A stretch of 35,330 nucleotides of DNA from a virus, in the IMG/VR virus record IMGVR_UViG_3300031951_000618, positions 1 through 35,330 of that record. One strand, written 5' to 3'. The number at the start of each line of letters is the position of its first letter. The first letter of the stretch is position 1. Shown here in pieces: positions 11,871-32,596 of this stretch. A program made the translations under genes and the position numbers. The notes under the pieces are model-generated. The model saw only the letters and a program-made list of their open reading frames with translations, ran no database searches and had not been told where the DNA came from.

Positions 11871-11875
11871 CTAAT

Positions 11876-12654: not shown

Positions 12655-12664
12655 TTATGATTAT

Positions 12665-12883: not shown

Positions 12884-12947
12884 CTCAACTGGATAGAGCA
12901 TCTGACTACGGATCAGAAGGTTATAGGTTCGAATCCTTTTAGGCGCA
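12874..12947 (+). tRNA. tRNA-Arg (ACG)
   Basis: Acceptor GCGCTTA/TAGGCGC, anticodon stem TCTGA/TCAGA, loop CTACGGA. ACG is the usual A34 (inosine) Arg anticodon. It overlaps the FeoA-like gene. Confidence 0.93.
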
Positions 12948-12948
12948 T

Positions 12949-13131
12949 ATGAAAAAAACAACTGACAAAGAAATAGAGGAAATGCGTTTATCTCTGTTTC
13001 TGTTAAAATTAGAATTAGAAGGATATATTCGTGGTGATTGGTACTACGAATATCACATGACTATTGGTTATAATAAAAAATTTACCGGAAAAAAGATTCT
13101 TAGACTTGACAAAAGTGAAGAAACCGAGTAG
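12949..13131 (+). CDS. Hypothetical protein (60 aa)
   Basis: Begins 1 bp after tRNA-Arg. It is charged and mainly helical (KEIEEMRLSLFLLKLELEGYIRG), with a basic aromatic middle (DWYYEYHMTIGYNKKF). Not recognised. Its 3' end carries a promoter whose TAGATT -10 box contains this gene's TAG stop codon. Confidence 0.5.
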   Translation: MKKTTDKEIEEMRLSLFLLKLELEGYIRGDWYYEYHMTIGYNKKFTGKKILRLDKSEETE

Positions 13132-13134
13132 ATT
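13106..13134 (+). promoter_or_regulatory. Promoter TTGACA-17-TAGATT overlapping a gene end
   Basis: GACTTGACAAAAG, 17 bp, TAGATT at 13129-13134, ACAATC. It drives tRNA-Pro ten bases later. The stop codon of the upstream gene is the TAG of the -10 box. Confidence 0.8.
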
Positions 13135-13143
13135 ACAATCATA

Positions 13144-13216
13144 CGGGATGTAGCTCAATTGGCAGAGCACTCGCTTTGGGAGCGAGGGGTTGCTGGTTCA
13201 AGTCCAGTCATCCCGA
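13144..13216 (+). tRNA. tRNA-Pro (TGG)
   Basis: Acceptor CGGGATG/CATCCCG, anticodon stem CTCGC/GCGAG, loop TTTGGGA, T-arm GCTGG-TTCAAGT-CCAGT. Confidence 0.94.
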
Positions 13217-13232
13217 CTTACAAGGAGAAAAC

Positions 13233-13394
13233 ATGAAAGAAAAAGACAGACTACCTGACATCATTGCAATAATAGCAACAATCATGTTCATTGTATTTGC
13301 ATTTGTCATTTCTGGATCCGTTGGCACCAGCAATGGTGTCAGCGAGTTACAAGGCGGAGACATTCAACACGCCATAGATACAAAACAATACTAA
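13233..13394 (+). CDS. Single-span membrane protein (53 aa)
   Basis: Starts at ATG 13233 after AAGGAG. A charged N-terminus (MKEKDRLPD) precedes one strong hydrophobic helix (IIAIIATIMFIVFAFVISG, residues 10-28) and a polar tail ending KQY. Topology would be N-in with an external tail. Function unknown; a holin-like or envelope role is possible. It sits between tRNA-Pro and tRNA-Cys. Confidence 0.6.
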   Translation: MKEKDRLPDIIAIIATIMFIVFAFVISGSVGTSNGVSELQGGDIQHAIDTKQY

Positions 13395-13397
13395 GTT

Positions 13398-13472
13398 GGA
13401 CGAGTGGCAGAGAGGCCCAATGCAAGAGTCTGCAAAACTCTAAAGCCGCCGGTTCGAATCCGGCCTCGTCCT
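13398..13472 (+). tRNA. tRNA-Cys (GCA)
   Basis: Acceptor GGACGAG/CTCGTCC, anticodon stem AGAGT/ACTCT, loop CTGCAAA, T-arm GCCGG-TTCGAAT-CCGGC. Last tRNA in the window. No tRNA-His was found. Confidence 0.94.
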
Positions 13473-21943: not shown

Positions 21944-22716
21944 TTTCTGAAAAAACATTAATAGAACAAAGCGCCTTTTTCGCAAACCTTAGTAGTTGTG
22001 TATATAAAGATTTAGCCTTCATGCGTGTGAACTATGAAGGGTTTAAAGTTGTGTATCATGGTCATAAAGGTGCCGATGCCTTCACAATGGAAGATGATAA
22101 CAATTTCATCGTTGCCTGTCGTGGCACAGAAGTAAAACAATTCTCTGATGTGAAAGCCGATTTAAGTATTTCCAAAACCACAGTGGCACATGGTAAATTA
22201 CATATTGGCTTCAACCATTATGTTGATAAAATTTGGCAACCCATCATGGCACTCGCCCAACACACACAGAAAAAAGTTTGGTTTACAGGACATAGCTTAG
22301 GTGCCGCAATGGCTACCATTATGGCATATCGGTTCGCCACAGATGACACACTCCCAAACCCAGCAGGATTATTCACATATGGAAGTCCTCGTGTGGGAAA
22401 TCGTACATTCATTAATCATTTCAACACACTACCCTTCCCACATCATCGGTGGGTGAATGATGGTGATATTGTCACGAAGATTCCCTTTGCGCCATGGTTC
22501 TATCACTGTGGTACAATGCATCATATTGACTCCGAAGGATATGTCACACCCTTTTATGAAAAAGCATCACTGGGATATCGGATTATGCGTGTGATTAAGA
22601 GTCGCGGTGTGTTCCGTATGTTATGGCAAGATACTCAGGATCATAGTTCCGAATTATATCGAAATTATCTTGCTCTCGCAGAAAAGTTCCCCATCATGGA
22701 GAATTCCACTCTGTAG
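21940..22716 (+). CDS. Class 3 lipase (alpha/beta hydrolase)
   Basis: A 258-aa protein. The nucleophile elbow FTGHSLGAAMA places catalytic Ser119; D176 in VNDGDIVTKIP and a C-terminal His (probably in QDHSSELY) complete the triad; FIVACRGTE is the oxyanion-strand motif of fungal-type class 3 lipases. No signal peptide is visible, so it would act in the cytoplasm or need another exit path, such as lysis or the CsgG-like pore. The family hydrolyses acylglycerols or phospholipids. Last gene of the exported-protein cluster, overlapping the previous one by 4 bp. Confidence 0.88.
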   Translation: MISEKTLIEQSAFFANLSSCVYKDLAFMRVNYEGFKVVYHGHKGADAFTMEDDNNFIVACRGTEVKQFSDVKADLSISKTTVAHGKLHIGFNHYVDKIWQPIMALAQHTQKKVWFTGHSLGAAMATIMAYRFATDDTLPNPAGLFTYGSPRVGNRTFINHFNTLPFPHHRWVNDGDIVTKIPFAPWFYHCGTMHHIDSEGYVTPFYEKASLGYRIMRVIKSRGVFRMLWQDTQDHSSELYRNYLALAEKFPIMENSTL

Positions 22717-22724
22717 AGATGCTG

Positions 22725-22749
22725 TAAGTTGTTGATTTATAAGCACTTA
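22725..22749. repeat. 25-bp palindrome upstream of promoter (operator candidate)
   Basis: TAAGTTG-N11-GCACTTA, the same arms and loop as at 643-667, ending 9 bp before the -35 box at 22759. Confidence 0.7.
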
Positions 22750-22758
22750 GACAGGGAC

Positions 22759-22787
22759 TTGACAAATGGTCCCTGTCGTGCTATATT
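22759..22787 (+). promoter_or_regulatory. Promoter TTGACA-17-TATATT
   Basis: GGGACTTGACAAATGGT, 17 bp, TATATT at 22782-22787. It opens the GC-richer small-gene block and is followed by an AGGAG leader before ATG 22814. Confidence 0.87.
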
Positions 22788-22813
22788 TCATATATAACTT
22801 CACAGGAGATGAT

Positions 22814-23128
22814 ATGAACACGGATTTGCTCATTCAGGAGTATCTTGACGTTCTCATTCAGGCGGTGAACACGTATTACGCCAAGTATTATCCCAATCTG
22901 GAGCCCGATAAGTATTACATCATGAAGGGACGTAAGTATCACCGTGTGGTGTCGGCAGGTAAGCATGGAAATCGGTCGGTTCATGCCTTTGTGGGTGAGG
23001 ATGGTATGCTCTACAAGGCGGCAGGATGGGCGGCGCCCGCCAAGGATGCGCGGTACAATCTTGCCACAGACATGGACGTTCTTCGGGAACGTATTGATCC
23101 CCACGGCGGCTATCTCTATAAGCGGTAA
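22814..23128 (+). CDS. Conserved phage protein (104 aa)
   Basis: Start ATG 22814 after AGGAG. The N-terminal helix (NTDLLIQEYLDVLIQAVNTYYAKYYP) precedes YYIMKGRKYHRVVSAGKHGNRSVHAFVGEDGMLYKAAGWAAPAKDARYNL. The latter pattern (xSVHAFV...G..YKAAGW.APAK.ARYNL) recurs in many unrelated tailed phages as an orphan family. Function unknown. First gene in the 22759 transcription unit. Confidence 0.65.
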   Translation: MNTDLLIQEYLDVLIQAVNTYYAKYYPNLEPDKYYIMKGRKYHRVVSAGKHGNRSVHAFVGEDGMLYKAAGWAAPAKDARYNLATDMDVLRERIDPHGGYLYKR

Positions 23129-23133
23129 TCATC

Positions 23134-23403
23134 ATGCCCATTGACATCATCAGCATCCATGCTCCTGCCATTACCACACTACGTGGAAAAACCTGGGTGG
23201 TGCCGAATTGGGTTGAAGTGCCTCAGGGTACCACATTACAGGACATTTGCTGGATTCGTCCCGCGGAACCAAAAAGTAACAAGACCACGAAGCATGTAGG
23301 TAAATATCTCATCACCATTTATGATTCAGGAAACGTGACATGCGATTGTCCAGGATTTACATTTCGGAAAAAGTGCAAGCATTCCGCCGAATATTTAACA
23401 TGA
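23134..23403 (+). CDS. SWIM-type zinc-finger protein (89 aa)
   Basis: The C-terminal half KYLITIYDSGNVTCDCPGFTFRKKCKHSAEYL has the SWIM signature C-x-C-x(n)-C-x-H (C73, C75, C84, H86). SWIM fingers bind nucleic acid or proteins and occur in recombination and transposition proteins. The N-terminal ~50 residues contain TWVVPNWVEVPQGTTLQD without a known fold. The stop overlaps the next start by 4 bp. Confidence 0.75.
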   Translation: MPIDIISIHAPAITTLRGKTWVVPNWVEVPQGTTLQDICWIRPAEPKSNKTTKHVGKYLITIYDSGNVTCDCPGFTFRKKCKHSAEYLT

Positions 23404-23588
23404 AGCGCACATTTCGCAAAGTGAGACATCGGGTGGATGGCATGTTCATTGCCCGACAAATCCGAAAAACGGAATTGTGTGTACAATGTCAGGTTGACAC
23501 AGGTGTTCCCGTGGGGCTTGACATTTCAGAGCGATTGTTTTATGTTACAGGTGTCGGGCAACTCTGCCATGATTGTTATCTACCATAG
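23400..23588 (+). CDS. Small zinc-ribbon-like protein (62 aa)
   Basis: Start ATG 23400, overlapping the SWIM-protein stop. The N-terminus is basic (MKRTFRKVRHRVDG). CVQCQVDTGVPVG...VGQLCHDCYLP gives two C-x2-C pairs, consistent with one zinc site. Function unknown; nucleic-acid binding is plausible from the basic N-terminus. The promoter candidate 23518-23546 lies inside it. Confidence 0.6.
   Translation: MKRTFRKVRHRVDGMFIARQIRKTELCVQCQVDTGVPVGLDISERLFYVTGVGQLCHDCYLP
23518..23546 (+). promoter_or_regulatory. Internal promoter TTGACA-17-TATGTT
   Basis: GGGGCTTGACAT, 17 bp, TATGTTACAG (23541-23550), matching the TATATTACAG core of the early promoters. It lies in coding sequence and is placed to express the gene at 23598. 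Confidence 0.6.
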
Positions 23589-23597
23589 GAGATGAAC

Positions 23598-23846
23598 ATG
23601 CTTGTTAAGACGAACGACCTCAAGAAGGGTGACCGTGTGTTGCTGCGAAATGGGTGGTATGCCACAATTCAGGATAATCGCAAGGGTGATGTCCGCGTGG
23701 CCACGGTGGAAGGAGTATATACGGAAACGGGTAGCGTCTATGCCCATGACATCATTGAGGCACACATTGCCGATGCCTGGGTCACCATTTCACACACGCC
23801 CAAGCAACAGCAGTTGCAGCAGCGCGTGACACATTGGGGGTTCTAA
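23598..23846 (+). CDS. Conserved phage protein, SH3-like (82 aa)
   Basis: ATG 23598 is chosen because AGGAG lies 6 bp upstream, while ATG 23592 would directly abut it. The sequence LKKGDRVLLRNGWYATIQDNRKGDVRVATVEGVYTETGSVYAHDII has the short strands and KGDRV..NG pattern of SH3-like barrels. It recalls small proteins found in several phages. Function unknown. The stop TAA shares a base with the next start. Confidence 0.6.
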   Translation: MLVKTNDLKKGDRVLLRNGWYATIQDNRKGDVRVATVEGVYTETGSVYAHDIIEAHIADAWVTISHTPKQQQLQQRVTHWGF

Positions 23847-23944
23847 TGCAAAACAAGGACAAGGGAGGGTGGTGGGGTCTCGCAGTATTTCTGGTGGGAT
23901 GCACCATTATGGCAATTCACGCTCTACTGGATGACGAGGACTAA
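23846..23944 (+). CDS. Tiny membrane peptide (32 aa)
   Basis: MQNKDKGGWWGLAVFLVGC followed by TIMAIHALLDDED: a single hydrophobic span (residues 9-26) with a basic N-terminus and acidic C-terminus. It starts at a TAATG overlap and lies 4 bp before the next gene. Too short for homology; tight packing with real genes supports it. Confidence 0.5.
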   Translation: MQNKDKGGWWGLAVFLVGCTIMAIHALLDDED

Positions 23945-23948
23945 CCAC

Positions 23949-24137
23949 ATGTCAAAGTGGGACTATTTGGACGAGGAATATGAACGTTATCAGCGCGTGG
24001 AGAAAATTCAGAAAAGCATGACGCCCACGGGGAGTGTCACGGAGCATCTGAAATTCGTGGAACCGCGTAGAAACAATGCCCAGAAGCGCCTCATGTATGC
24101 CCAGCAACGCGCTTTGAAACACCCAGTCTGGGATTAA
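23949..24137 (+). CDS. Hypothetical helical protein (62 aa)
   Basis: Start ATG 23949. It is highly charged (DEEYERYQRVEKIQKS, RRNNAQKRLMYAQQRAL) and probably a two-helix protein; no motif is recognised. Its end overlaps by 4 bp the end of the leftward NUMOD3-like gene, so the two convergent units meet here with no visible terminator. Confidence 0.5.
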   Translation: MSKWDYLDEEYERYQRVEKIQKSMTPTGSVTEHLKFVEPRRNNAQKRLMYAQQRALKHPVWD

Positions 24138-24613
24138 CGGCGCCTTCTTCGTCCCCAGCACCAGCCGTCAGGTAACGTGAAGGGGAGATACATGAAATGT
24201 TCCCGACCATCAGGACTGAGCGCCCAGCGTCTCGGTCCTCGATGCTTCATGCCCAGACTAATCTTCAATTTCGACCGAGGAGTATGGTGCATATTATAGA
24301 AATGATGATGTTCCCCGCGGCGTTGCTTCTTCATGGTGGCGGCGATTTTCCGTTTATGTACCTCAGATAATCCCGAAGCGTTGGGATTCTTGTTCCCGCG
24401 CTTGGCGTCACGCATCTTTTCACGCCCCGCCGGGGTGATGCCTGTCCACGTGGTGTTCACTAAGGATGTGACGGGATGCTGTTGTTTCTCGCAGTATCGT
24501 TGGGCATCTTGTATCTTCTTGAACACCCCGAGCAGTTCACTCCCAGGATGTGAGATGCGCGGATGCTGATCCGAGAGATACCAGATGTCATCACGCTGAA
24601 ACAGATAAATCAT
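24134..24613 (-). CDS. NUMOD3-repeat DNA-binding protein (homing-endonuclease relative)
   Basis: A 159-aa basic protein. Residues ~70-130 contain two or three NUMOD3-like units (GNKNPNASGLSEVHKRKIAATMKK, GEHHHFYNMHHTPRSKLKISLGMK), the small helical DNA-binding repeats of GIY-YIG and HNH homing endonucleases. No GIY-YIG or HNH catalytic motif is seen. The N-terminal ~50 residues (YLFQRDDIWYLSDQHPRISH) are unassigned, so it is either a degenerate free-standing endonuclease or a DNA-binding regulator. It overlaps the dCMP deaminase stop by 4 bp and is transcribed with it. One of only two leftward genes. Confidence 0.7.
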   Translation of the reverse strand: MIYLFQRDDIWYLSDQHPRISHPGSELLGVFKKIQDAQRYCEKQQHPVTSLVNTTWTGITPAGREKMRDAKRGNKNPNASGLSEVHKRKIAATMKKQRRGEHHHFYNMHHTPRSKLKISLGMKHRGPRRWALSPDGREHFMYLPFTLPDGWCWGRRRRR

Positions 24614-25062
24614 GTTTCCAAAATGCGCATGAAATGTCGATGTTGTTCACGAAATAACGTCTGAGTCATCATGGAACTCCCATAATTGTCCAAATAGAAC
24701 ACTTCAGAAATGTTCGTGGCGAGTATGGCCTGAGCACAGGTGACACAGGGTGTATGCGTGACAAACAATGTGCAGTCAGACAACATGAACCAGCGCTCCC
24801 ACCAAAACAGCTTTTGTAAGGCGTTCATTTCGGCATGAATCACAGTATCTAACGTTTTATTGTCACGTTCCATGGTGTTGTCAGCTCCTGCAGGGGTTCC
24901 ATTATATCCCACACTAATGATGCGCCGTGAGGGACGATGCCAAATGACACATCCCACACGGGCACGAACAGCCCGACTGCGTTGAGATAATGCTCGAATG
25001 GTTTGAATACAGAAGCGCATGTCCCCAGGATGCATCTGAGACTTATGATTGGAAAGTGTCAT
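24610..25062 (-). CDS. Deoxycytidylate (dCMP) deaminase
   Basis: Up to 150 aa; ATG codons for residues 10 and 15 are alternative starts, because no Shine-Dalgarno sequence is clear upstream of the first. Zinc ligands are visible as H76-A-E78 (catalytic Glu78) and C106-V-T-C109. SVGYNGTPAG (residues 50-59) is typical of dCMP deaminases and RSRAVRARVGCVI fits the start of the domain. It converts dCMP to dUMP for thymidylate supply; T4-like phages usually encode it as cd. No thymidylate synthase lies in the window. Divergent from the genes after 25469, across the iteron region. Confidence 0.9.
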   Translation of the reverse strand: MTLSNHKSQMHPGDMRFCIQTIRALSQRSRAVRARVGCVIWHRPSRRIISVGYNGTPAGADNTMERDNKTLDTVIHAEMNALQKLFWWERWFMLSDCTLFVTHTPCVTCAQAILATNISEVFYLDNYGSSMMTQTLFREQHRHFMRILET

Positions 25063-25285
25063 AGAGTATTGTATATATGAAAAACAGTATCATGAGACAT
25101 GATAATAAAAGAACACAGAGAATGCCAGAAACAAGAAAGATAGTCTGCGAGATGAAGGAAGTCAAGAGAGAACACCAGAAGAAATGAGATGTACTAAGAC
25201 TAGAGATTGTGGATAATAGACTATTTATAAGGGTTTGAAATGAAGTAATCCCCCGCCTGCTCCCCATGACCACTGTGACCAGAAC

Positions 25286-25362
25286 TGCGGGTGTTATTGC
25301 GGGATATATCACGGGAAAAAATGCGGGTTATTCTGCGGGAAAAAATGCGGGTGGTGTGCGGG
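25286..25362 (+). repeat. Array of 12-bp iterons, TGCGGG + variable, often A/T-rich hexamer
   Basis: TGCGGG begins at 25286, 25298, 25322, 25334, 25346 and 25357, with a degenerate CACGGG at 25310: seven units at 12-bp spacing (last 11). The intervening hexamers are tgttat, atatat, aaaaaa, ttattc, aaaaaa and a tggtg pentamer. Such iterons are typical of replication origins, partition sites or cooperative regulator arrays. The array lies in the 25063-25528 non-coding gap between divergent transcription units; 25063-25285 shows only purine-rich top-strand sequence. Confidence 0.75.
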
Positions 25363-25387
25363 TTGTGCACGTTCTCTTATACGCAAT

Positions 25388-25434
25388 GCGCACCCCGCAC
25401 CATGTAGCGCGCACCATCTAACACGCACCCCGCA
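25388..25434 (-). repeat. Inverted CCCGCA / GCGCACC repeats facing the iterons
   Basis: CCCGCA at 25394-25399 and 25429-25434 are inverted copies of the TGCGGG core, and GCGCACC-like words recur at 25388, 25409 and 25423. They could pair with or bind the same protein as the direct iterons on the left. Confidence 0.6.
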
Positions 25435-25468
25435 CATGATGATACGTAACCCCATGTACCCACGCATC

Positions 25469-25497
25469 TTGACATATCATGGAACATCATGTATATT
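25469..25497 (+). promoter_or_regulatory. Promoter TTGACA-17-TATATT
   Basis: CATCTTGACATAT, 17 bp, TATATT at 25492-25497, just right of the iteron/inverted-repeat region, with AGGAG at 25518 before the gene at 25529. Confidence 0.8.
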
Positions 25498-25528
25498 CAG
25501 AGATATACCCCACACACAGGAGATGGCT

Positions 25529-25759
25529 ATGGGAAATTCTGGAGCGCGTGCTGACCGTGAAATGCAGGCCCTGATGCGGAAAGTGCGCAAGTTGGCGGCT
25601 CGACAGCGCGGGACCCCCCAGGAGCAGCAGGACCGGGAGGACCAGGAGGCGGCGCCGGGCAAGAGGCGGTTCGTGGATGTGTCAGGCGAACATGATGTCC
25701 GCGTGGAGGATGCCACCGCCGACGAGATTTTCCGCGAAATGAAGCGCCGGGATTTTTAA
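25529..25759 (+). CDS. Hypothetical charged protein (76 aa)
   Basis: ATG 25529 is preferred over ATG 25523 because AGGAG (25518-25522) is at a proper 6-bp distance. It is strongly charged and predicted helical and disordered (ADREMQALMRKVRKLAARQRGTPQEQQDREDQEAAPGKRRF), with an acidic C-terminal part (VRVEDATADEIFREMKRRDF). It resembles a small nucleic-acid-binding or scaffold-like protein only in composition. It stands alone between a promoter and a strong terminator, next to the iterons, so an iteron-binding or replication role is worth testing. Confidence 0.55.
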   Translation: MGNSGARADREMQALMRKVRKLAARQRGTPQEQQDREDQEAAPGKRRFVDVSGEHDVRVEDATADEIFREMKRRDF

Positions 25760-25777
25760 AATTGGGAAATCCTCAGG

Positions 25778-25818
25778 TACCTCAGCATTGAACATCTTAG
25801 TGCTGAGGTATTTTTTTT
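25778..25818 (+). terminator. Intrinsic terminator
   Basis: Perfect 10-bp stem TACCTCAGCA (25778-25787) / TGCTGAGGTA (25801-25810), 13-nt loop, followed by eight T. It ends the monocistronic 25529 unit. Confidence 0.88.
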
Positions 25819-25858
25819 GGAATTTCGGAATTTCAGCACTGGGAATCTCAGCACTAAG
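25796..25858. repeat. Inverted repeat competing with the terminator stem
   Basis: CTTAGTGCTGAG (25796-25807) is perfectly complementary to CTCAGCACTAAG (25847-25858), and CAGCACT also occurs at 25834-25840. The first arm overlaps the 3' arm of the terminator, so the two stems exclude each other. This could be an attenuator-like switch or a bidirectional terminator pair. Confidence 0.5.
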
Positions 25859-25896
25859 ACACCTGGAAATTCGAAAAAAATATTTTCCAAAAGGAC

Positions 25897-25925
25897 TTGA
25901 CAAATGGTTCCTGGGGTGCTAGATT
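25897..25925 (+). promoter_or_regulatory. Promoter TTGACA-17-TAGATT (leaderless type)
   Basis: AGGACTTGACAAATGGT, 17 bp, TAGATT at 25920-25925. Tandem ATGATG starts 5 bp later, with no room for a Shine-Dalgarno sequence. Confidence 0.85.
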
Positions 25926-25930
25926 GCGGT

Positions 25931-26116
25931 ATGATGAAAAACGACACCGAACTCCGCCTCGAGCTGACGTTCCATCCCGAGGCGTCCGAGGCAGAAAAAA
26001 CGCAAATCACGCGCATGCTGGCAACGGCAATCGCCGACATCATGGATGATGAAATGCGTTTCACGGATCTAGGCGAGCTGTTGCAGGATTACACGGTGAA
26101 GATGCACAGGGCTTGA
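25931..26116 (+). CDS. Hypothetical early protein, predicted leaderless (61 aa)
   Basis: Starts ATGATGAAAAAC at 25931 (or 25934), 5-8 nt after a -10 box, so the mRNA would begin at or a few bases from the start codon. Sequence: MMKNDTELRLELTFHPEASE, then a helix (EKTQITRMLATAIADIMDDEM) and a C-terminal amphipathic part. Small alpha/beta protein, not recognised. Its TGA stop lies inside the TTGACA of the next promoter. Its first residues resemble those of the next leaderless gene (MMKND). Confidence 0.6.
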   Translation: MMKNDTELRLELTFHPEASEAEKTQITRMLATAIADIMDDEMRFTDLGELLQDYTVKMHRA

Positions 26117-26141
26117 CAAATGGTGCCCCCTAGTGTATACT
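26113..26141 (+). promoter_or_regulatory. Promoter TTGACA-17-TATACT containing a stop codon
   Basis: AGGGCTTGACAAATGGT, 17 bp, TATACT at 26136-26141, ACAGTATGATG. The TGA of the upstream gene is within TTGACA (26114-26116). It drives the gene at 26147. Confidence 0.87.
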
Positions 26142-26146
26142 ACAGT

Positions 26147-26329
26147 ATGATGAAAAACGACAACACAACCGAACAGACGCAGCAGGCGCAGCAGGCGCAG
26201 CAGGATCAGTCCCTCATGGGCGGCTACTATCATGGCCCCAGCAATGAGGCGGGGCTCACCGCCCGGGAATACTGGGACGCCCGGTGGGAATATGAGGATG
26301 AGCAGGAACGCCTCAGGAACGATTGGTAA
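26147..26329 (+). CDS. Hypothetical early protein, Gln-rich, predicted leaderless (60 aa)
   Basis: Begins ATGATG 5 nt after the -10 box. The protein opens MMKNDNTTEQTQQAQQAQQDQ, a Gln/Ala repeat from short tandem CAGCAGGCG units, followed by GGYYHGPSNEAGLTAREYWDARWEYEDEQERL. The second half may be a small aromatic/acidic module. Not recognised. It is followed 1 bp later by the zinc-ribbon gene, so the promoter at 26113 serves both. Confidence 0.55.
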   Translation: MMKNDNTTEQTQQAQQAQQDQSLMGGYYHGPSNEAGLTAREYWDARWEYEDEQERLRNDW

Positions 26330-26330
26330 C

Positions 26331-26636
26331 ATGATGCGTAGACGCATACAACCCAAGCCCCCCACGGGCACCCAGGCTCTACTCGCGGCAGAGCGCGAGG
26401 CGCGCAAGCAACGGTTACAATCCCGGGTCAGGCTCAGCCCAGGTGGGCGCCCCATGTGCCAATACTGCGGGGTGCATGAGGCCCAGCATACGGGGCATCG
26501 CAGAAAGGATGGGAGCGTGATTTTGCGAAAACATGAAAAGCTGTACACTTGCGCAGAATGCCATAATGCACGCTATGACATCACCCCCTATTGGGGACCG
26601 CGATATAAACGCGAGGATGTTGCTGAGGCCTACTAA
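26331..26636 (+). CDS. Zinc-ribbon / HNH-like Cys4 protein (101 aa)
   Basis: Tandem ATG ATG start at 26331. After a basic N-terminal tail (RRRIQPKPPTGTQALLAAEREARKQRLQSRVR), CQYCGVHEAQHTGHRRKDGSV...YTCAECHNARY supplies two C-x2-C pairs with intervening His residues. This resembles the zinc-binding frame of HNH nucleases or small zinc ribbons; the catalytic HH-N layout is not clear. The stop TAA is the first triplet of a TAAGTGC palindrome arm. Confidence 0.6.
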   Translation: MMRRRIQPKPPTGTQALLAAEREARKQRLQSRVRLSPGGRPMCQYCGVHEAQHTGHRRKDGSVILRKHEKLYTCAECHNARYDITPYWGPRYKREDVAEAY

Positions 26637-26658
26637 GTGCATGGAAATCAAGCACTTA
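26634..26658. repeat. 25-bp palindrome overlapping a stop codon (operator candidate)
   Basis: Perfect TAAGTGC-N11-GCACTTA. The first TAA is the stop codon of the upstream gene. It ends 9 bp before the -35 box at 26668. Confidence 0.75.
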
Positions 26659-26667
26659 CCCCAGGGC

Positions 26668-26696
26668 TTGACAAATGGTGGAAACCAGTGTAGCTT
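26668..26696 (+). promoter_or_regulatory. Promoter TTGACA-17-TAGCTT
   Basis: AGGGCTTGACAAATGGT, 17 bp, TAGCTT at 26691-26696, a weak -10. The leader GTATACACTCAAAAGGAG is shared with the 28597 promoter. A weak -10 with an upstream palindrome suggests dependence on an activator. Confidence 0.75.
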
Positions 26697-26723
26697 TAGG
26701 TATACACTCAAAAGGAGAACAGC

Positions 26724-27014
26724 TTGTCCCAGTACAACGGTTGGATGAACTACGAAACGTGGCGCGTGAACCTGGAGATGCTGGATGGGATGACCATCGA
26801 GGATTTCGGATACCGGATCTACAACACGGATGCTGACAGCATCGCCGATGTGGTGGGCGACCTGAGGATGAGCCTCGAGGAGTATGTTTGGGACATTGTC
26901 GGGCAGGACGCCAAGGGCTTCGCGCTCGACCTCGCGGAGAGTTTCCTCAGCAAGGTGGATTGGGAGGAAATCGCGGAGCACATGGTGGCAGACGCTGCCG
27001 CGGAGTGTGTCTAA
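26724..27014 (+). CDS. DUF7249-like phage protein (96 aa), TTG start
   Basis: TTG at 26724 lies 6 bp after AGGAG and is the only fitting start. The N-terminal SQYNGWMNYETWRVNLEM is the hallmark of a small family found in very diverse phages (YNGWTNYETW...), which I recall as DUF7249; function unknown. The rest is acidic and helical (MSLEEYVWDIVGQDAKGFALDLAESFL, WEEIAEHMVADAA). First gene of a five-gene unit with TAATG or near overlaps. Confidence 0.7.
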   Translation: MSQYNGWMNYETWRVNLEMLDGMTIEDFGYRIYNTDADSIADVVGDLRMSLEEYVWDIVGQDAKGFALDLAESFLSKVDWEEIAEHMVADAAAECV

Positions 27015-27172
27015 TGAAAACGTTCCAGGTTCCCGTGTGGTTCAACATTCAGGCCGAGACACAAGAGGAAGCGTGGCAGCAGGTGCAGACGCAGTTGACG
27101 CATTACACTCCCATGCCGTCGCACTGGGAGTATGTGGTCGAGGAACCCGTGGAAATCAGCGAGGATAACTAA
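27014..27172 (+). CDS. Hypothetical protein (52 aa)
   Basis: Starts at a TAATG overlap. MKTFQVPVWFNIQAETQEEAWQQVQTQLTHY has a beta-strand/helix layout (IQAETQEEAWQQVQ) seen in small phage proteins with a ferredoxin-like or DUF-type fold, then a short C-terminal strand. Not identified. Next start follows 1 bp after the stop. Confidence 0.55.
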   Translation: MKTFQVPVWFNIQAETQEEAWQQVQTQLTHYTPMPSHWEYVVEEPVEISEDN

Positions 27173-27173
27173 T

Positions 27174-27386
27174 ATGAAAAATGGTGAAAATCTCATCTAC
27201 CAAATTGCGCAGAACCGTGAAAGTCTCATCTACCAATTTGCCGAGTGCATGGTGCATGACATGGATGGCGACTCGCTTATGGTGTATGCACTGGAAAAGC
27301 TGCGGGAAGATTATGCGCAATATAGCAATGAGGTGCTGCTCGCAGAAATTTCGGAATACTATCCTGAACTCCTAGAGGAACAGTAA
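27174..27386 (+). CDS. Hypothetical acidic helical protein (70 aa)
   Basis: Start ATG 27174. It contains an internal near-repeat, ENLIYQIAQN then ESLIYQFAEC, encoded by repeated DNA (ctcatctaccaa), suggesting a small duplication. The rest is acidic and helical (LMVYALEKLREDYAQYSNEVLLAEISEYYPELLEEQ). Not recognised. It ends in a TAATG overlap with the next gene. Confidence 0.55.
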   Translation: MKNGENLIYQIAQNRESLIYQFAECMVHDMDGDSLMVYALEKLREDYAQYSNEVLLAEISEYYPELLEEQ

Positions 27387-27559
27387 TGCTTTGGCGATTT
27401 GAGGATGCCACGGGTGTGTGGCGGACGGGCAAGATGGAACGGTTTTCGGATTTCGGTGGCACCGATGTCACCTATTGGTTCAAGGATCAGGATGGACGCA
27501 TCCACCTGGTGTCAGGCGCGCGACTCAAGGCAGCATACCCCTTTCCAGAGGCAAACTAA
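27386..27559 (+). CDS. Hypothetical small beta protein (57 aa)
   Basis: Starts at the TAATG overlap. The sequence MLWRFEDATGVWRTGKMERF, then SDFGGTDVTYWFKDQDGRIHLVSGARLKAAYPF, predicts a compact beta barrel with several aromatic residues. Not recognised. Tight packing on both sides supports it as a real gene. Confidence 0.55.
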   Translation: MLWRFEDATGVWRTGKMERFSDFGGTDVTYWFKDQDGRIHLVSGARLKAAYPFPEAN

Positions 27560-27560
27560 C

Positions 27561-27740
27561 ATGGCGGAACGCATTCTCGGTGCACTGTACGAAGGCAAGG
27601 AATATCAGCAGGCCATGGCGGATGCCAAGGCAGAGTTCCAAGCCTGGGAGCGGGATAAAAAGCGCAACCGCGTGTCCACCAAGGAGAAATACAAGGCGCA
27701 GCGCCTCGCCAAGCTCCATATGATGGAGATGATGCGCTAA
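27561..27740 (+). CDS. Hypothetical basic helical protein (59 aa)
   Basis: Start ATG 27561, 1 bp after the previous stop. The N-terminal helix (AERILGALYEGKEYQQAMADAKAEFQAW) precedes a basic segment (KKRNRVSTKEKYKAQRLAKLHMMEMMR). Not recognised; the charge could suit nucleic-acid binding. The stop TAA forms the first bases of the next palindrome. Confidence 0.55.
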   Translation: MAERILGALYEGKEYQQAMADAKAEFQAWERDKKRNRVSTKEKYKAQRLAKLHMMEMMR

Positions 27741-27762
27741 GTCCATGTAAATCAAGCACTTA
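27738..27762. repeat. 25-bp palindrome overlapping a stop codon (operator candidate)
   Basis: TAAGTCC-N11-GCACTTA, one mismatch in the arms. It ends 9 bp before the -35 at 27772. The loop ends AAATCAA, as in two other copies. Confidence 0.7.
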
Positions 27763-27771
27763 CGCCAGGGC

Positions 27772-27800
27772 TTGACAAATGGGGGAAACGGTGCTATATT
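27772..27800 (+). promoter_or_regulatory. Promoter TTGACA-17-TATATT (leaderless type)
   Basis: AGGGCTTGACAAATGG, 17 bp, TATATT at 27795-27800, ACAGTAT, then ATGATG at 27808. Perfect -35. Confidence 0.9.
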
Positions 27801-27807
27801 ACAGTAT

Positions 27808-28152
27808 ATGATGAATAACACCTACTCCGATGATGTGCGCGTGATGACTGCCGCGCTCCTGGTGTCCACGCAGTGCTATGAAAACTACGCCTTCACGCCG
27901 GAAGGGGATGTGGATGGGGAGAACCCCTACTGGAAGGCGAAGGGGGGATCGGACTACCTGATCCTCAACGTGGACGCAGAGTCCACGGGGCTGGAGATCC
28001 AGTATGTACTGGATGCCGTGGCTCCGCAGGTGGAGACGGACAACGCCTTGTTCCGGGAGTACATCATTGGATCCCGGGTGGTGCCTGCCAACTTCACCTT
28101 CGGGGACTGGCGGGATGACTTCCTGGAAACCATTCCCAACCCCAGGGCTTGA
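27808..28152 (+). CDS. Conserved phage protein, predicted leaderless (114 aa)
   Basis: Starts ATGATGAATAAC exactly 7 nt after the -10 box. The sequence MTAALLVSTQCYENYAFTPEGDVDGENPYWKAKGGSDYLI resembles a small family in several phages (QCYENYG...YWK.KGGS); the C-terminal part has VETDNALFREYIIGSRVVPANFTFGDW. Function unknown. It ends RA-stop, with the TGA inside the TTGACA of the next promoter, as at 26114. Confidence 0.7.
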   Translation: MMNNTYSDDVRVMTAALLVSTQCYENYAFTPEGDVDGENPYWKAKGGSDYLILNVDAESTGLEIQYVLDAVAPQVETDNALFREYIIGSRVVPANFTFGDWRDDFLETIPNPRA

Positions 28153-28177
28153 CAAACCCGGAATCCGGTGCTATATT
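28149..28177 (+). promoter_or_regulatory. Promoter TTGACA-17-TATATT containing a stop codon
   Basis: AGGGCTTGACAAACC, 17 bp, TATATT at 28172-28177, ACAGTAT, ATG at 28185. TGA 28150-28152 of the upstream gene is within the -35 box. Confidence 0.9.
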
Positions 28178-28184
28178 ACAGTAT

Positions 28185-28376
28185 ATGAAAACATACACCA
28201 TTAATCGGTTCGCTGAGGTTGAGGGCTTCGCCTCCACGTGGTACGTCATTAACATGGTGACGGGTCTGGCGCAGGACACCGTGTACCGCACCTACACCGA
28301 GGCGCGCGCTGCCGCGGATTTCCTGAAAACCTATTATCAGGCAGTGGAGCGGGGGCACCCACCCCGATCCTGGTGA
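28185..28376 (+). CDS. Hypothetical early protein, predicted leaderless (63 aa)
   Basis: ATG 7 nt after the -10 box. MKTYTINRFAEVEGFASTWY, VINMVTGLAQDTVYRTYTEARAAADFL and a short tail ending PPRSW suggest a small beta-hairpin plus helix module; the strand-T-x-E-A-R-x-A-A-x-F-L helix resembles small phage proteins with an antirestriction-like or DUF fold, without clear family. Stop TGA lies 4 bp before the next -35 box. Confidence 0.6.
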   Translation: MKTYTINRFAEVEGFASTWYVINMVTGLAQDTVYRTYTEARAAADFLKTYYQAVERGHPPRSW

Positions 28377-28380
28377 GCAC

Positions 28381-28409
28381 TTGACAAATGGTTCCCCGGG
28401 TGCTATATT
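28381..28409 (+). promoter_or_regulatory. Promoter TTGACA-17-TATATT (leaderless type)
   Basis: GAGCACTTGACAAATGGT, 17 bp, TATATT at 28404-28409, then ATGATG at 28417. An earlier ATG at 28412 runs into TGA after two codons. Confidence 0.9.
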
Positions 28410-28416
28410 ACATGGT

Positions 28417-28593
28417 ATGATGAACATTTACCAAATCCGAGAATACCCCGACGGCATCGCCGTCGTGGACGTGCGCACCAACTCCACGATTAATACGTGG
28501 AACCCCGAACTCAAGCACATGGCGGTGCACTTCTGCCAGCTCCTGAATGAGCGCCTGGACCGGGAAATTTGGTCGAAACCCATTTACGCCTAG
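28417..28593 (+). CDS. Hypothetical early protein, predicted leaderless (58 aa)
   Basis: Tandem ATG ATG at 28417/28420, 7-10 nt after the -10. MMNIYQIREYPDGIAVVDVRTNSTINTWNPELKHMAVHFCQLLNERLDREIWSKPIYA predicts two strands followed by a helix. Not recognised. The stop TAG is directly followed by GGC-TTGACA of the next promoter. Confidence 0.6.
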   Translation: MMNIYQIREYPDGIAVVDVRTNSTINTWNPELKHMAVHFCQLLNERLDREIWSKPIYA

Positions 28594-28596
28594 GGC

Positions 28597-28625
28597 TTGA
28601 CAAATGGTTCCCCCGGTGCTATATT
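28597..28625 (+). promoter_or_regulatory. Promoter TTGACA-17-TATATT (leader with RBS type)
   Basis: TAGGGCTTGACAAATGGT, 17 bp, TATATT at 28620-28625, then ACAGTATACACTCAAAGGAG and ATG at 28653. Its leader matches that of the 26668 promoter. Confidence 0.9.
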
Positions 28626-28652
28626 ACAGTATACACTCAAAGGAGATTAAGC

Positions 28653-28835
28653 ATGTACCATGTCCCGATGTGCAAGGTGTGCGGCGAGCATGAGGTGGGC
28701 ACGTTCATCGGAAGCGCGGAGTTTTGCTCGGAGAAGTGCCAGACGGAGGCTTGCTACTCCTATGATGCCGTGGGCGACGGCTGGGGGTATGATGACTGCG
28801 AAGCCCTTTATGCAGGATCCTACTCTGAGGAGTAG
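28653..28835 (+). CDS. Small zinc-ribbon-like protein (60 aa)
   Basis: Start ATG 28653 after AGGAG. CKVCGEHEVGTFIGSAEFCSEKCQTEAC carries two C-x2/3-C pairs (C7, C10, C25, C29), consistent with one zinc ion, followed by an acidic aromatic tail (VGDGWGYDDCEALYAGSYSEE). It resembles treble-clef or MYND-like small phage proteins. Function unknown. Its TAG stop abuts the next promoter. Confidence 0.65.
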   Translation: MYHVPMCKVCGEHEVGTFIGSAEFCSEKCQTEACYSYDAVGDGWGYDDCEALYAGSYSEE

Positions 28836-28838
28836 GGC

Positions 28839-28867
28839 TTGACAAATGGTGGAAACGGTGCTAGATT
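28839..28867 (+). promoter_or_regulatory. Promoter TTGACA-17-TAGATT for the AAA+ ATPase
   Basis: AGGGCTTGACAAATGGT, 17 bp, TAGATT at 28862-28867, ACGCAGTATAG. A ~35-nt leader with AGGA precedes ATG 28909. Confidence 0.88.
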
Positions 28868-28908
28868 ACGCAGTATAGTCACTCAACACAACACACATCC
28901 CAGGAACT

Positions 28909-29748
28909 ATGTCTCTCCAGATTAAGCGTCGTGGTCGTCCCTCCAAGCAGATGCTCGCCGAGCGCGCCTCGAAGGCGACTGTCAAGGCTCGCACCGATAT
29001 CGAGGTTCTCACCGACCTCAAGGATCGTTTCGACATGTTGGGCAAGCTCACGCAGGGTAGCACCAAGGGTGACATTCGCAGCATGGTGGTGACGGGTGCC
29101 CCAGGCGTAGGCAAGACCTACACGGTGAGCAACATCCTTGAGAACACCCCGAACATTGTCACGGAGTCGGTGTCGGGCGCCATCAGCGCGGTCGAGCTCT
29201 ACAAGCTCGGGTATCGCAATCGCAAGCACGGCAACGTGATTGTCCTGGATGACGCCGACAGCATCTTCACCGATGAGGACGCGCTCAACATCCTCAAGGC
29301 GCTCTGCGACTCCAGCGCCAATCGCCGCGTGTCCTGGCTCAAGGACAGTCACACGCTCAAGCAGGATGATGTTCCGCAGAGCTATGAATTTCACGGCTCA
29401 TTCATTTTCATTTCCAACCTTGACTTCCAGAAGTATGTGGACATGGGCGGGAATAAGTATGTCACGCATTTCGAGGCGCTCATGTCACGTAGCCTCTACT
29501 TGGATCTGCGTCTCCATGACCGTCAGGCCATTAGTCTCTGGATCGAGCACATTGCCACGGGCGGCAAGCTCTTTGCGCGGGAAAATGTCAAGCCAGACGT
29601 TGGGAATAAGATTCTCGCCTTCATTAAGCAGCATCGGGACGACCTGCGTGAGCTGAGTCTGCGTACGGTCATGAAGCTCTGCGCGCTTGCCAAGAGTCAC
29701 CCCACGGACTGGGAGCGCATGGGACGGGTTCTCTTGACGCGAGGCTAA
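28909..29748 (+). CDS. AAA+ ATPase
   Basis: A 279-aa protein. Walker A GAPGVGKT at residues 63-70 and Walker B VIVLDDAD at 110-117 are clear, followed by a sensor-1-like FIFISNLD near residue 165 and an arginine-rich region (SRSLYLDLRLHDRQ). The N-terminal ~30 residues are basic (QIKRRGRPSKQ), with an AT-hook-like GRPSK, suggesting DNA binding. This type of phage ATPase is common in T4-like marine phages, with unknown substrate; loader, motor or remodelling roles are possible. It is the largest gene of the early block and has its own promoter. Confidence 0.85.
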   Translation: MSLQIKRRGRPSKQMLAERASKATVKARTDIEVLTDLKDRFDMLGKLTQGSTKGDIRSMVVTGAPGVGKTYTVSNILENTPNIVTESVSGAISAVELYKLGYRNRKHGNVIVLDDADSIFTDEDALNILKALCDSSANRRVSWLKDSHTLKQDDVPQSYEFHGSFIFISNLDFQKYVDMGGNKYVTHFEALMSRSLYLDLRLHDRQAISLWIEHIATGGKLFARENVKPDVGNKILAFIKQHRDDLRELSLRTVMKLCALAKSHPTDWERMGRVLLTRG

Positions 29749-29809
29749 GTGCATGGGACGTAAGCACTTATCCCCTCGCGCCCGTAAGTGCATATAAATC
29801 AAGCACTTA
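29746..29809. repeat. Two tandem 25-bp palindromes (double operator candidate)
   Basis: Perfect TAAGTGC-N11-GCACTTA at 29746-29770 and again at 29785-29809, centres 39 bp apart. The first TAA is the ATPase stop codon. The second copy ends 8 bp before the -35 at 29818. Confidence 0.8.
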
Positions 29810-29817
29810 GCCAGGGC

Positions 29818-29846
29818 TTGACAAATGGTTCCCAGGGTGCTATATT
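29818..29846 (+). promoter_or_regulatory. Promoter TTGACA-17-TATATT (leaderless type)
   Basis: AGGGCTTGACAAATGGT, 17 bp, TATATT at 29841-29846, ACGCTAT, ATG at 29854. Confidence 0.9.
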
Positions 29847-29853
29847 ACGCTAT

Positions 29854-30027
29854 ATGACTAAAACGACCAAGACCATCGACGCAACGCCCACGTGGGAATC
29901 ACTGGTTCCCGTTCTCCTCTACCTTGTCCGAAACTCGCGCACTGCGACCGCGGATATTGAGCAGGAGCTGGTTCGCATGGCTCAGGCAGCCGATAAGTGG
30001 AATGCTCACTGCAAGGAGACCCGCTAA
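29854..30027 (+). CDS. Hypothetical early protein, predicted leaderless (57 aa)
   Basis: ATG 7 nt after the -10 box. MTKTTKTIDATPTWESLVPV, LLYLVRNSRTATADIEQELVRMAQAADKWNAH: a Thr-rich start followed by helices. Similar short helical proteins occur upstream of unrelated phage genes, but I cannot name a family. Its TAA stop shares a base with the start of the next gene, so it may act as a coupling leader cistron for that gene, whose own start lacks a strong Shine-Dalgarno sequence. Confidence 0.55.
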   Translation: MTKTTKTIDATPTWESLVPVLLYLVRNSRTATADIEQELVRMAQAADKWNAHCKETR

Positions 30028-30740
30028 TGTTTACGGAAGTGAACCCCAAGCTGGTGAAGGGCGAAGTCCTCGGGTACAAGAGCTTCGGCATCCATTTTGC
30101 CCCGGCGCGGATCTCGGGGTATCAGGTGTGCAGTTCCGCGAGCGAAGGATGCACCACGGCGTGCCTCTACACCAGTGGGCATGGCAGGTTCACGCGCACG
30201 CAGGATGCCCGGATCGCCAAGACCCGGCGGTTTTTCGAGGAGCGTCCTGAGTTCCTCACGGAGCTGGTGAAGCACGTGGAAGCTGCCATCCGGAAGGCAA
30301 AGCGGTTGCAGCTCACCCCGGCATTCCGGTTCAACCTCACTTCCGACGTGCGCTGGGAACTGGTCCCCGTCATGGTGAAGGGTGTCCAGTATGAAAACAT
30401 CATGGCAGCATTTCCGCAGGTGCAATTTTACGATTACACCAAGCACACGAACCGCAGAAACATCCCCGCAAACTATCACCTCACGTTCTCACGCAGCGAA
30501 AGCAATGATGGTGACGTAGAGGAGATGTTTTTCCAGGGATACAACGTGGCGGTGGTGTTCGACACCAAGAAGGGCGAGCCGCTCCCTACTACATACAAGG
30601 GTCGCCCGGTTATCGACGGCGACGAACATGACCTGAGGTTCTTGGACCCCAAGGGTGTCTGGGTGGGACTCCGAGGCAAGGGGGAAGCCAAGAAGCACGA
30701 CCACAATGGGTTTGTCATCATCACACGCAACAGGAGCTAA
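30027..30740 (+). CDS. Conserved phage protein of unknown function with Cys cluster (237 aa)
   Basis: The N-terminal part YQVCSSASEGCTTACLYTSGHGRF (C35, C42, C46) precedes ARIAKTRRFFEERPEFLTELVKHVEAAIRKA, then LTPAFRFNLTSDVRWELV, VQFYDYTKHTNRRNIPANYHLTFSRSESN and PVIDGDEHDLRFLDPKGVWVGLRGKG. This motif set recurs in many unrelated tailed phages and plasmids as an uncharacterised family, recalled not searched. Three close Cys, a TSD and a YDYTK motif suggest a metal- or cluster-binding enzyme of TIM-barrel type, possibly radical-SAM-like, but the CxxxCxxC pattern is absent. Coupled by TAATG to 29854. Confidence 0.75.
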   Translation: MFTEVNPKLVKGEVLGYKSFGIHFAPARISGYQVCSSASEGCTTACLYTSGHGRFTRTQDARIAKTRRFFEERPEFLTELVKHVEAAIRKAKRLQLTPAFRFNLTSDVRWELVPVMVKGVQYENIMAAFPQVQFYDYTKHTNRRNIPANYHLTFSRSESNDGDVEEMFFQGYNVAVVFDTKKGEPLPTTYKGRPVIDGDEHDLRFLDPKGVWVGLRGKGEAKKHDHNGFVIITRNRS

Positions 30741-30742
30741 TT

Positions 30743-30865
30743 ATGGACAACGTGACCTATTTCTTTGCATTTCTCGGCGCCACTCTGACTGGATCCCTTG
30801 TAGGCATTCTGCTTGCGGAATTGGTGCTGCGCGCGAAGGATGTCATCCAAGGGGTGACATCATGA
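30743..30865 (+). CDS. Small membrane protein (40 aa)
   Basis: ATG 30743 follows AGGAG. MDNVTYFFAFLGATLTGSLV then GILLAELVLRAKDVIQGVTS: one hydrophobic helix (residues 6-29). It overlaps the next tiny membrane gene by 4 bp (ATGA). Such nested pairs of single-span proteins can be holin, pinholin or spanin-like, but no hallmark is present. Confidence 0.5.
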   Translation: MDNVTYFFAFLGATLTGSLVGILLAELVLRAKDVIQGVTS

Positions 30866-30948
30866 TGAATGTCCTCATCCTGATGATGATCCTAGCGATA
30901 GGAGTGCTGGCAGGCGGCGTTATGATATATGTTCTGGACAGGACATGA
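30862..30948 (+). CDS. Tiny membrane peptide (28 aa)
   Basis: MMNVLILMMILAIGVLAGGV followed by MIYVLDRT, nearly all hydrophobic with a short charged C-terminus. AAGGGG lies 6-7 bp upstream. It overlaps 30743-30865. The following 146 bp (30949-31094) hold no gene I can support. Confidence 0.45.
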   Translation: MMNVLILMMILAIGVLAGGVMIYVLDRT

Positions 30949-31094
30949 AAACCGAGGTAGGGAAATCTCTAGTCATCCATAGTGTGTAAGGCGACATAAA
31001 CCCCCTATTGACAGGTATCGTGTCTTTCCCCCTCACATGAAAAACTCCATACATTGTCAGAATTCCCTATAGAAAAAATTTTTCCCAGCAAAAC

Positions 31095-31304
31095 ATGACT
31101 CTTATACTGTTTTCCATCTTTCTGTTATGCATCACCCTGTTACCCTGGGTGTTGTATCGAAAATCTCAGGGACATGATGTTCCTCCCATTCTCGCCATTC
31201 TTTCCACAACATTGTTCTTTTTCTCACCCATTGTGTTGTTGTTGGGCATCATCTATTACATCATTCATCTCATCATTCTCATCATTGTTGGAGTGTTTTC
31301 ATGA
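31095..31304 (+). CDS. Small membrane protein, two to three spans (69 aa)
   Basis: Hydrophobic segments at residues 2-18 (TLILFSIFLLCITLLPWVL) and 32-68 (ILAILSTTLFFFSPIVLLL, GIIYYIIHLIILIIVGVFS) separated by a polar loop (YRKSQGHDVPP). The stop overlaps the lipoprotein start by 4 bp, so the two envelope proteins are probably produced together. Function unknown; a lysis-accessory pair is one possibility. Confidence 0.6.
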   Translation: MTLILFSIFLLCITLLPWVLYRKSQGHDVPPILAILSTTLFFFSPIVLLLGIIYYIIHLIILIIVGVFS

Positions 31305-31654
31305 AAAAATACATGATACTGTGTTGTGTGTTTCTCTCTGCCTGTTTCCCCATGTATGTTCTGGCACCCAACATGTCAGGATACATTGTGCGCATTGAAA
31401 GTGATGTTGCCTGGGAAGGGGTGGTGAATGACACCTGGGTGTCGGGTGTCAACACTTTGAGCATTCCCGTCACGCCTCAGGTGGGGCGCGTGGTGTGTTG
31501 GGACATTAGAAAATCTCCGCCCGCCCCGGGACTGCTGCGTGTATTCATGACATATCGTGATTATCACACCGGGAGCACCACACATCCGCGATGGGGTGAT
31601 GATGCCACCGTGTCCATCCTGGGAAGAATTCGGGGATGTAGTTCCGGGTGGTGA
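31301..31654 (+). CDS. Lipoprotein (117 aa)
   Basis: Signal MKKYMILCCVFLSAC with lipobox LSAC (Cys15). The mature part is beta-rich (GYIVRIESDVAWEGVVNDTWVSGVNTLSIPVTPQVGRVVCWDIRK) with two Cys that might pair, and an Arg/Gly tail. I do not recognise the domain. Its upstream overlap with a membrane protein suggests a spanin-like or exclusion function, which is untested. The gene ends within a stem-loop. Confidence 0.6.
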   Translation: MKKYMILCCVFLSACFPMYVLAPNMSGYIVRIESDVAWEGVVNDTWVSGVNTLSIPVTPQVGRVVCWDIRKSPPAPGLLRVFMTYRDYHTGSTTHPRWGDDATVSILGRIRGCSSGW

Positions 31655-31733: not shown

Positions 31734-31970
31734 ATGAAAATACCTGACATTTCAGAAATCATTGTGTCATGGCATCGGGCACGGAAACCCACGCCTGAAC
31801 AAGAACATGTCGCCAATCAGCGAGCGAACATTTGCGATACCTGTGATGAACGTGAATTCATGCCCGTCATTAAAATGTGGAAGTGCGGTGCCTGTGGATG
31901 TCCCATCACCAAGAAGATTTACTCGCCCAAGGGCCCCGGTGCCTGTCCCCGAGACAAATGGCCTATTTAA
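31734..31970 (+). CDS. Zinc-ribbon protein typical of T4-like phages (78 aa)
   Basis: A helical N-terminus (DISEIIVSWHRARKPTPEQEHVANQRANI) is followed by CDTCDEREFMPVIKMWKCGACGCPITKKIYSPKGPGACPRDKW. The C-x2-C ... C-x2-C-x-C ... CP..KW layout is a recurrent small zinc-ribbon of aquatic T4-like phages. Likely structural or regulatory; function unknown. Its stop lies 13 bp inside the next gene. Confidence 0.7.
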   Translation: MKIPDISEIIVSWHRARKPTPEQEHVANQRANICDTCDEREFMPVIKMWKCGACGCPITKKIYSPKGPGACPRDKWPI

Positions 31971-32596
31971 ACGCCAACATTCCCGTGATGAGTTGTTTGG
32001 TGCGCGGGGAATATCTTCAAAATCATGAACGCGGGTGGGGTGAATATTATCCCTGCATTGCCTTCGCCATTATGAGCCGGCCGGGTGAAGCCACGTTGTT
32101 CAACATTCTCATGGAAGATGGGGGTGTCTGGTGGGGTGTGCCCATCAGTGCCTTGTGCTGGCAGGAATGTGAACATCGTCCTTTGGAACAATTGCAACTC
32201 TGGAATTCTTTCAGCTACAACGTGAGTGTAACCACATTTGCCGCCTTGAGCCATTTGTCATGCATCTATTATGATAGAGACAATGTGAAACATGCGGGTG
32301 AATATCTATTCACCATAGATTGGAGTCAGGGTGATTATTCAGAATTGCGCTATGGCTATGCCGAAACAGCAGACAATCATAAATGCGGGCATGTGATAAA
32401 GTTGGATTCCGGGCATTTCGCCATTCAACCCAATAATCGAATGCGCTTCTTTGATCCCAGCTTCACGGTGAAGAAAGACTTGGTGGTGCACCGCCTCATC
32501 TCCGATAAGAAATATCGTGTGGAGAACACACCGAAATATTCCACGGAAGATAGTAACAAATTCTATTACGACATTATCCGGGATGAAACTTTATGA
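31958..32596 (+). CDS. Conserved T4-like phage protein (212 aa)
   Basis: ATG 31958 is chosen (alternative ATG 31988, MSCLVRGEYL). The sequence VRGEYLQNHERGWGEYYPCIAFAIMSRPGEATLFNILMEDGGVWWGVPISALCW and the C-terminal CGHVIKLDSGHFAIQPNNRMRFFDPSFTVKKDL resemble a conserved protein of aquatic T4-like phages of unknown function, recalled not searched. It is rich in aromatic residues and beta strands. It overlaps the next gene by 4 bp. Confidence 0.65.
   Translation: MAYLNANIPVMSCLVRGEYLQNHERGWGEYYPCIAFAIMSRPGEATLFNILMEDGGVWWGVPISALCWQECEHRPLEQLQLWNSFSYNVSVTTFAALSHLSCIYYDRDNVKHAGEYLFTIDWSQGDYSELRYGYAETADNHKCGHVIKLDSGHFAIQPNNRMRFFDPSFTVKKDLVVHRLISDKKYRVENTPKYSTEDSNKFYYDIIRDETL

Follow-up and report, generated by a model that had tools for sequence, protein, structure and literature searches.

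A block of small genes in an uncultured phage raises the question of how translation begins when the start codon lies so near the promoter that hardly any leader would fit between them. The block lies in a stretch of 35,330 nucleotides, a 35-kb fragment from IMG/VR that we refer to as the window. A sequence-only reading of the window had proposed that six genes, beginning at 25931, 26147, 27808, 28185, 28417 and 29854, are transcribed as leaderless mRNAs, which it thought unusual for T4-like phages, and that their presence beside SD-led mRNAs in one block suggests a sorting of translation, for example through phage-altered ribosomes or initiation factors. We examined the geometry of the six starts, their counterparts in related contigs and the occurrence of the same layout in other phages.

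Promoters and start codons of the block

The six starts lie where that reading placed them, each with its ATG just past a -10 box and with no Shine-Dalgarno (SD) site, as none of GGAG, AGGA, GAGG or AAGG occurs within 16 nt upstream of the ATG in any of the six. All six promoters have TTGACA and a 17-nt spacer. The distance from box to ATG, originally given as 5-8 nt, is indeed short, though the actual values are only 5 nt (genes 25931 and 26147) or 7 nt (genes 27808, 28185, 28417 and 29854). The boxes had been called consensus, which describes the TATATT of the four offset-7 genes, while TAGATT (25931) and TATACT (26147) deviate from this majority. Four genes open with ATGATG (25931, 26147, 27808 and 28417), as had been noticed, and 28185 and 29854 with a single ATG. 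The features of the block are the following:

25897..25930, + strand: promoter copy, TTGACA-N17-TAGATT, 5 nt to ATG
25931..26116, + strand: predicted leaderless gene, 61 aa, ATGATG
26113..26146, + strand: promoter copy, TTGACA-N17-TATACT, 5 nt to ATG
26147..26329, + strand: predicted leaderless gene, 60 aa, ATGATG
26634..26658, + strand: inverted repeat TAAGTGC..GCACTTA ahead of a promoter, with more copies at 643, 22725, 27738, 29746 and 29785
26668..26723, + strand: SD-led promoter of the same family, leader ACACTCAAAAGGAG
27772..27807, + strand: promoter copy, TTGACA-N17-TATATT, 7 nt to ATG
27808..28152, + strand: predicted leaderless gene, 114 aa, ATGATG
28149..28184, + strand: promoter copy, TTGACA-N17-TATATT, 7 nt to ATG; its -35 box holds the stop of gene 27808
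28185..28376, + strand: predicted leaderless gene, 63 aa, single ATG
28381..28416, + strand: promoter copy, TTGACA-N17-TATATT, 7 nt to ATG
28417..28593, + strand: predicted leaderless gene, 58 aa, ATGATG
28597..28652, + strand: SD-led promoter; family sequence to the predicted +1, then ACACTCAAAGGAGATTAAGC, then ATG at 28653
28839..28908, + strand: SD-led promoter of the AAA ATPase gene (28909-29748)
29818..29853, + strand: promoter copy, TTGACA-N17-TATATT, 7 nt to ATG
29854..30027, + strand: predicted leaderless gene, 57 aa, single ATG; overlap with the start of GP88 (TAATG)

An ATG falls at an offset of 4-8 in six of the nine block promoters scored, compared to a mean of 0.6 in shuffled sequences, none of which (0 of 5000) reaches six. 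Two related genomes (G003 and G004) together have the leaderless-type layout in 2 of 26 promoter-gene pairs (Fisher p = 0.0012 against the block), a p-value that overstates independence since the promoter copies of the block are paralogous and do not represent six independent events. Folding energies for the first 40 nt of these six genes range from -4.0 to 0 kcal/mol, compared to an average of -8.6 in stretches taken at random from the genes of the block, a background against which start regions generally may be less structured. An upstream in-frame start within the promoter (AAATGG) was considered and rejected, as it fits the offset-5 genes only, the offset-7 genes being in a different frame. 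Genes 25931 and 26147 share an MMKND N-terminus, and the TGA stop of the former falls inside the -35 box of the promoter of the latter; a Pfam search with the product of gene 25931 gave no match.

The block promoters have TTGACAAATGG-N8-GTGCTATATTACAGTATA in common, with variations, and leaderless and SD-led copies share their sequence up to the predicted +1, after which there is either an ATG or a leader with an SD site. The promoters at 676, 22759, 26668, 28597 and 28839, which had been set apart as SD-led, do have leaders with GGAG or AGGA, though the gene that follows 26668 has TTG as its start codon. Past the box, promoters 26668 and 28597 run on with ACACTCAAAAGGAG or ACACTCAAAGGAG, and the eighth base after the box, which is the A of the ATG in offset-7 genes, is the first A of ACACTCAAAGGAG in these two; with an offset of 5, the A's of the tandem ATG are the sixth and ninth base. 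The gene downstream of 26668 (window 26724-27014) encodes a DUF7249 protein (PF23907) with an apparent TTG start after AAAAGGAG. Inverted repeats of the form TAAGT..ACTTA lie upstream of promoters 676, 22759, 26668, 27772 and 29818. The G+C content is 47-55% at window 22501-31500, with a peak of 51-55% at 25501-31500, compared to 38-47% elsewhere in the window.

Relatives and other phages

Megablast found no match to the block among isolate phages, and a pattern search with its TTGACA-type cassette matched two sister contigs only. One sister contig (L008) is 99.7% identical over 8.6 kb; it and L009 hold the block or part of it, and relatives L010-L014 have AAA proteins 71-81% identical to that of the window. 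The Gp23 capsid protein in a 178-kb relative (G003) is most similar to that of Methylophilales phage Melnitz (69% identity) and 68% identical to that of Pelagibacter phage HTVC008M, which points to the T4 superfamily and an aquatic bacterial host and, through this relative, bears out the earlier label of T4-like. An actinobacteriophage origin, suggested by the tRNAs, was dropped on protein and Gp23 comparisons, and searching genome contigs for the AAA protein, intended to reveal the host, found no relative. The window also has 26 tRNA genes (4201-13472), a tryptophan halogenase gene (8736-10313; PF04820) and a protein that matches a PHROG annotated as ferredoxin (31877-32596; phrog_3704), and a permuted tmRNA was called in G002, G003 and G004.

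Aligning the starts among relatives, as the sequence-only reading had suggested, supports some of them and not others. Sister contig L009 keeps all four leaderless starts within its coverage. Gene 28417 differs from its sister at three sites, all synonymous third positions (0,0,3 by codon position), gene 29854 at 1,2,4 (third favoured) and gene 27808 at 2,0,2. The ortholog of 29854 (L011:5132-5302; 45% identity) aligns from its first Met onward and is preceded by an SD leader, CAACAGGAGATAAGATG, so the gene is known in both forms, and the leader was probably lost in the lineage of the window, where GP88, the AAA gene and 29854 also come in another order than in L010-L012. The orthologs of 26147 in L010 and L011 share its C-terminal part (80% and 63% identity), with a different N-terminus (MNGFDDFD). 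Distant homologs of 27808 start at about M13, which implies that 27808 is either extended by 12 residues or starts later than assumed, and genes 25931, 28185 and 28417 lack homologs in L010-L014, so that their starts are not anchored.

A clearer case is found in the gene for a PD-(D/E)XK exonuclease (PF12705), which is also present in sister contig G002 (L186). The -10 box and the ATG are exactly 6 nt apart in all 22 orthologs (13 distinct sequences), an offset that puts the A of the ATG at the canonical +1. Mean pairwise identity among these promoters drops from 0.95 for the -35 box (TTGACA in 11 and TTGACC in 2 of the 13 distinct sequences) to 0.41 for the spacer and 0.44 for the six discriminator bases; only one of the 13 has an SD-like tetramer near the ATG. 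More distant relatives (L242-L248) are without such promoter spacing, some having an SD-like leader. As the exonuclease keeps the same layout in related phages, the leaderless pattern looks real.

The layout is also found well beyond these relatives. A scan of viral contigs for TTGACA-N17-TATATT-N5-7-ATGATG gave at least 119 stretches, compared to 89 in a complete control scan with N12-14. Among the matches listed, 52 of 92 have an ATGATG that starts an ORF 50 aa or more in length and reaching little further upstream, compared to 11 of 57 in the control (repeats removed; Fisher p = 7e-6), and offset 6 prevails (63 of 95 among the matches listed). In about 1 Mb of phage loci, scored with one -10 mismatch allowed and selected for patterns other than leaderless starts, thus not a random sample, 14 of the 58 pairs of promoter and gene have an offset of 5-8, which in 10 of them is exactly 6, and 33 have one of 21-45. 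The distances are bimodal, with a peak at 6 nt, a near-empty gap and then the range from 21 to 45 nt.

Several contigs have arrays comparable to that of the window. Contigs L087, L044, L088 and L035, in which a search for Gp23 gave no match, each have several TTGACA-N17-TATATT promoters with the ATG mostly 5-8 nt past the box, as do L102 and L106, though all differ from the window in their promoter sequences. In the L102/L106 group the cassettes are TATATTAATAATATGATGAAAACAAAGGAA, and as a rule an SD-like site and a second ATG come next, unlike in the window; this ATG is in frame with the ATGATG in 16 of 17 cassettes, which are related to each other. L102 encodes a clamp loader of phrog_168. 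Repeated promoter-ATGATG cassettes are seen in L102, L106, L093, L085 and L039, with an MMKTKE-like N-terminus in frame with the SD-led second ATG. Such arrays, and the 14 of 58 pairs that are leaderless by the same rule, make the claim that the block is unusual doubtful. We consider it possible, though rather tentative, that leaderless early transcription, with +1 fixed on a start AUG that is often tandem, is a common strategy of uncultured phages, in which promoter and start codon move as one cassette and sometimes add an N-terminal tag (MMKND here, MMKTKE elsewhere).

Leaderless transcription and its alternatives

The six genes are probably expressed as leaderless mRNAs from shuffled copies of one strong sigma70-type promoter, with initiation on a 5'-terminal AUG. 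RNA polymerase would start at the start codon or within about 2 nt of it, leaving no leader or one of at most 1-2 nt, and ribosomes would initiate on the terminal AUG in place of an SD site. The promoter copies may act as cassettes shuffled among small early genes, which is plausible, and whether a gene became SD-led or leaderless would then depend on the sequence joined after +1. With a tandem ATGATG, some wobble in where transcription starts can probably be tolerated, because an in-frame AUG would come first in the RNA whichever of the two A's it began with. The direct evidence consists of the geometry, the missing SD sites, the exonuclease spacing, the one SD-led ortholog and the altered gene order; what we infer is where the 5' ends really lie, that ribosomes start on these AUGs, in which direction the starts changed and what purpose ATGATG serves. 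The original proposal that transcription begins at or near the AUG stands in this sense, as promoter geometry, the exonuclease, unstructured 5' ends and bimodal distances together suggest a +1 on the AUG or at most 2 nt from it, so that this terminal AUG would be all that signals initiation.

The block genes are packed on one strand, and a read-through mRNA could also carry all six. Translation might then come mainly from polycistronic mRNA, by coupling or reinitiation, with the nearby promoters only boosting genes further downstream; stop codons 30-40 nt before the ATGs of 26147, 28185 and 28417, two of them within a -35 box, would suit this. However, these ATGs have no SD site for reinitiation, a gap of about 105 nt precedes 29854, and the exact spacing conserved in the exonuclease orthologs would be needless, which makes this explanation unlikely. 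The promoter-proximal ATG could instead lie within a short 5' leader, with translation from a later codon, as the homologs of 27808 and the ATGATG layout followed by AAGGA and ATG in the other phage group might suggest. Yet no SD site is seen ahead of the internal ATG of 27808, the 29854 ortholog begins at the same codon, and the downstream ATG of the other group is nearly always in frame, albeit in related cassettes; we regard a later start as quite improbable.

Leaderless transcription could also serve the sorting of translation in time that the sequence-only reading envisaged, as both mRNA classes are present in one block and IF3, S1/S2 and initiator tRNA act differently on the two kinds of initiation (PMC9031893). 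No altering factor was found in the window, though this is a minor part of the phage genome, and the candidate for a phage initiator tRNA, the tRNA-Met at 11141, was rejected as its sequence does not look like that of an initiator. Additionally, both promoter classes have the same -35 and -10 boxes and are thus probably expressed together. We found no evidence for such sorting and consider it very unlikely.

If the 5' ends are as predicted for leaderless transcription, leaderless initiation serves a good part of some early blocks in T4-like phages of aquatic bacteria, and gene finders that expect an SD site can misannotate such genes. The block would also provide a natural matched set of SD-led and leaderless promoters, with which to ask when leaderless translation pays during infection.

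Comparison with known systems

Promoter/stem-loop cassettes of T4-type phages, termed PeSLs, were reportedly described by Arbiol (2010) and Comeau (2014). Our best reading is that the cassettes of the six promoters resemble PeSLs, in so far as these are outlined where PMC4503421 cites them: both have repeated sigma70-type promoters between small genes, inverted repeats before some promoters and a gene order changed among relatives. Unlike PeSLs as cited there, the inverted repeats of the block have no T run behind them, and terminator-like matches in the block number 5 compared to 3.8 expected, no more than chance would give. The fusion of promoter and leaderless start, predicted for the block, is absent from the description of PeSLs in PMC4503421.

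A literature search for leaderless genes of T4-like phages or for AUGAUG found nothing on point, though leaderless mRNAs are known from other sources. They can be initiated by 70S ribosomes, with reported effects of IF3, S1 and initiator tRNA (PMC9031893), and weak 5' structure has been linked to their translation (PMC9031893; PMC4117421). There are 375 such mRNAs in Caulobacter (PMC4117421) and 171 in S. meliloti (PMC3616915), and the bimodal leader lengths of Lactococcus cremoris (PMC10986495) are like those of the surveyed phage loci. Leaderless mRNAs of Caulobacter, Sinorhizobium, Mycobacterium and Lactococcus, and that of lambda cI, share with the block an AUG at or near the 5' end, the lack of an SD site and weak structure (PMC9031893, PMC4117421, PMC3616915, PMC10986495). 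The block, whose leaderless mRNAs are predicted only, differs from these in having multiple copies of one cassette within a short stretch of phage DNA, and a tandem ATG in four of its six genes.
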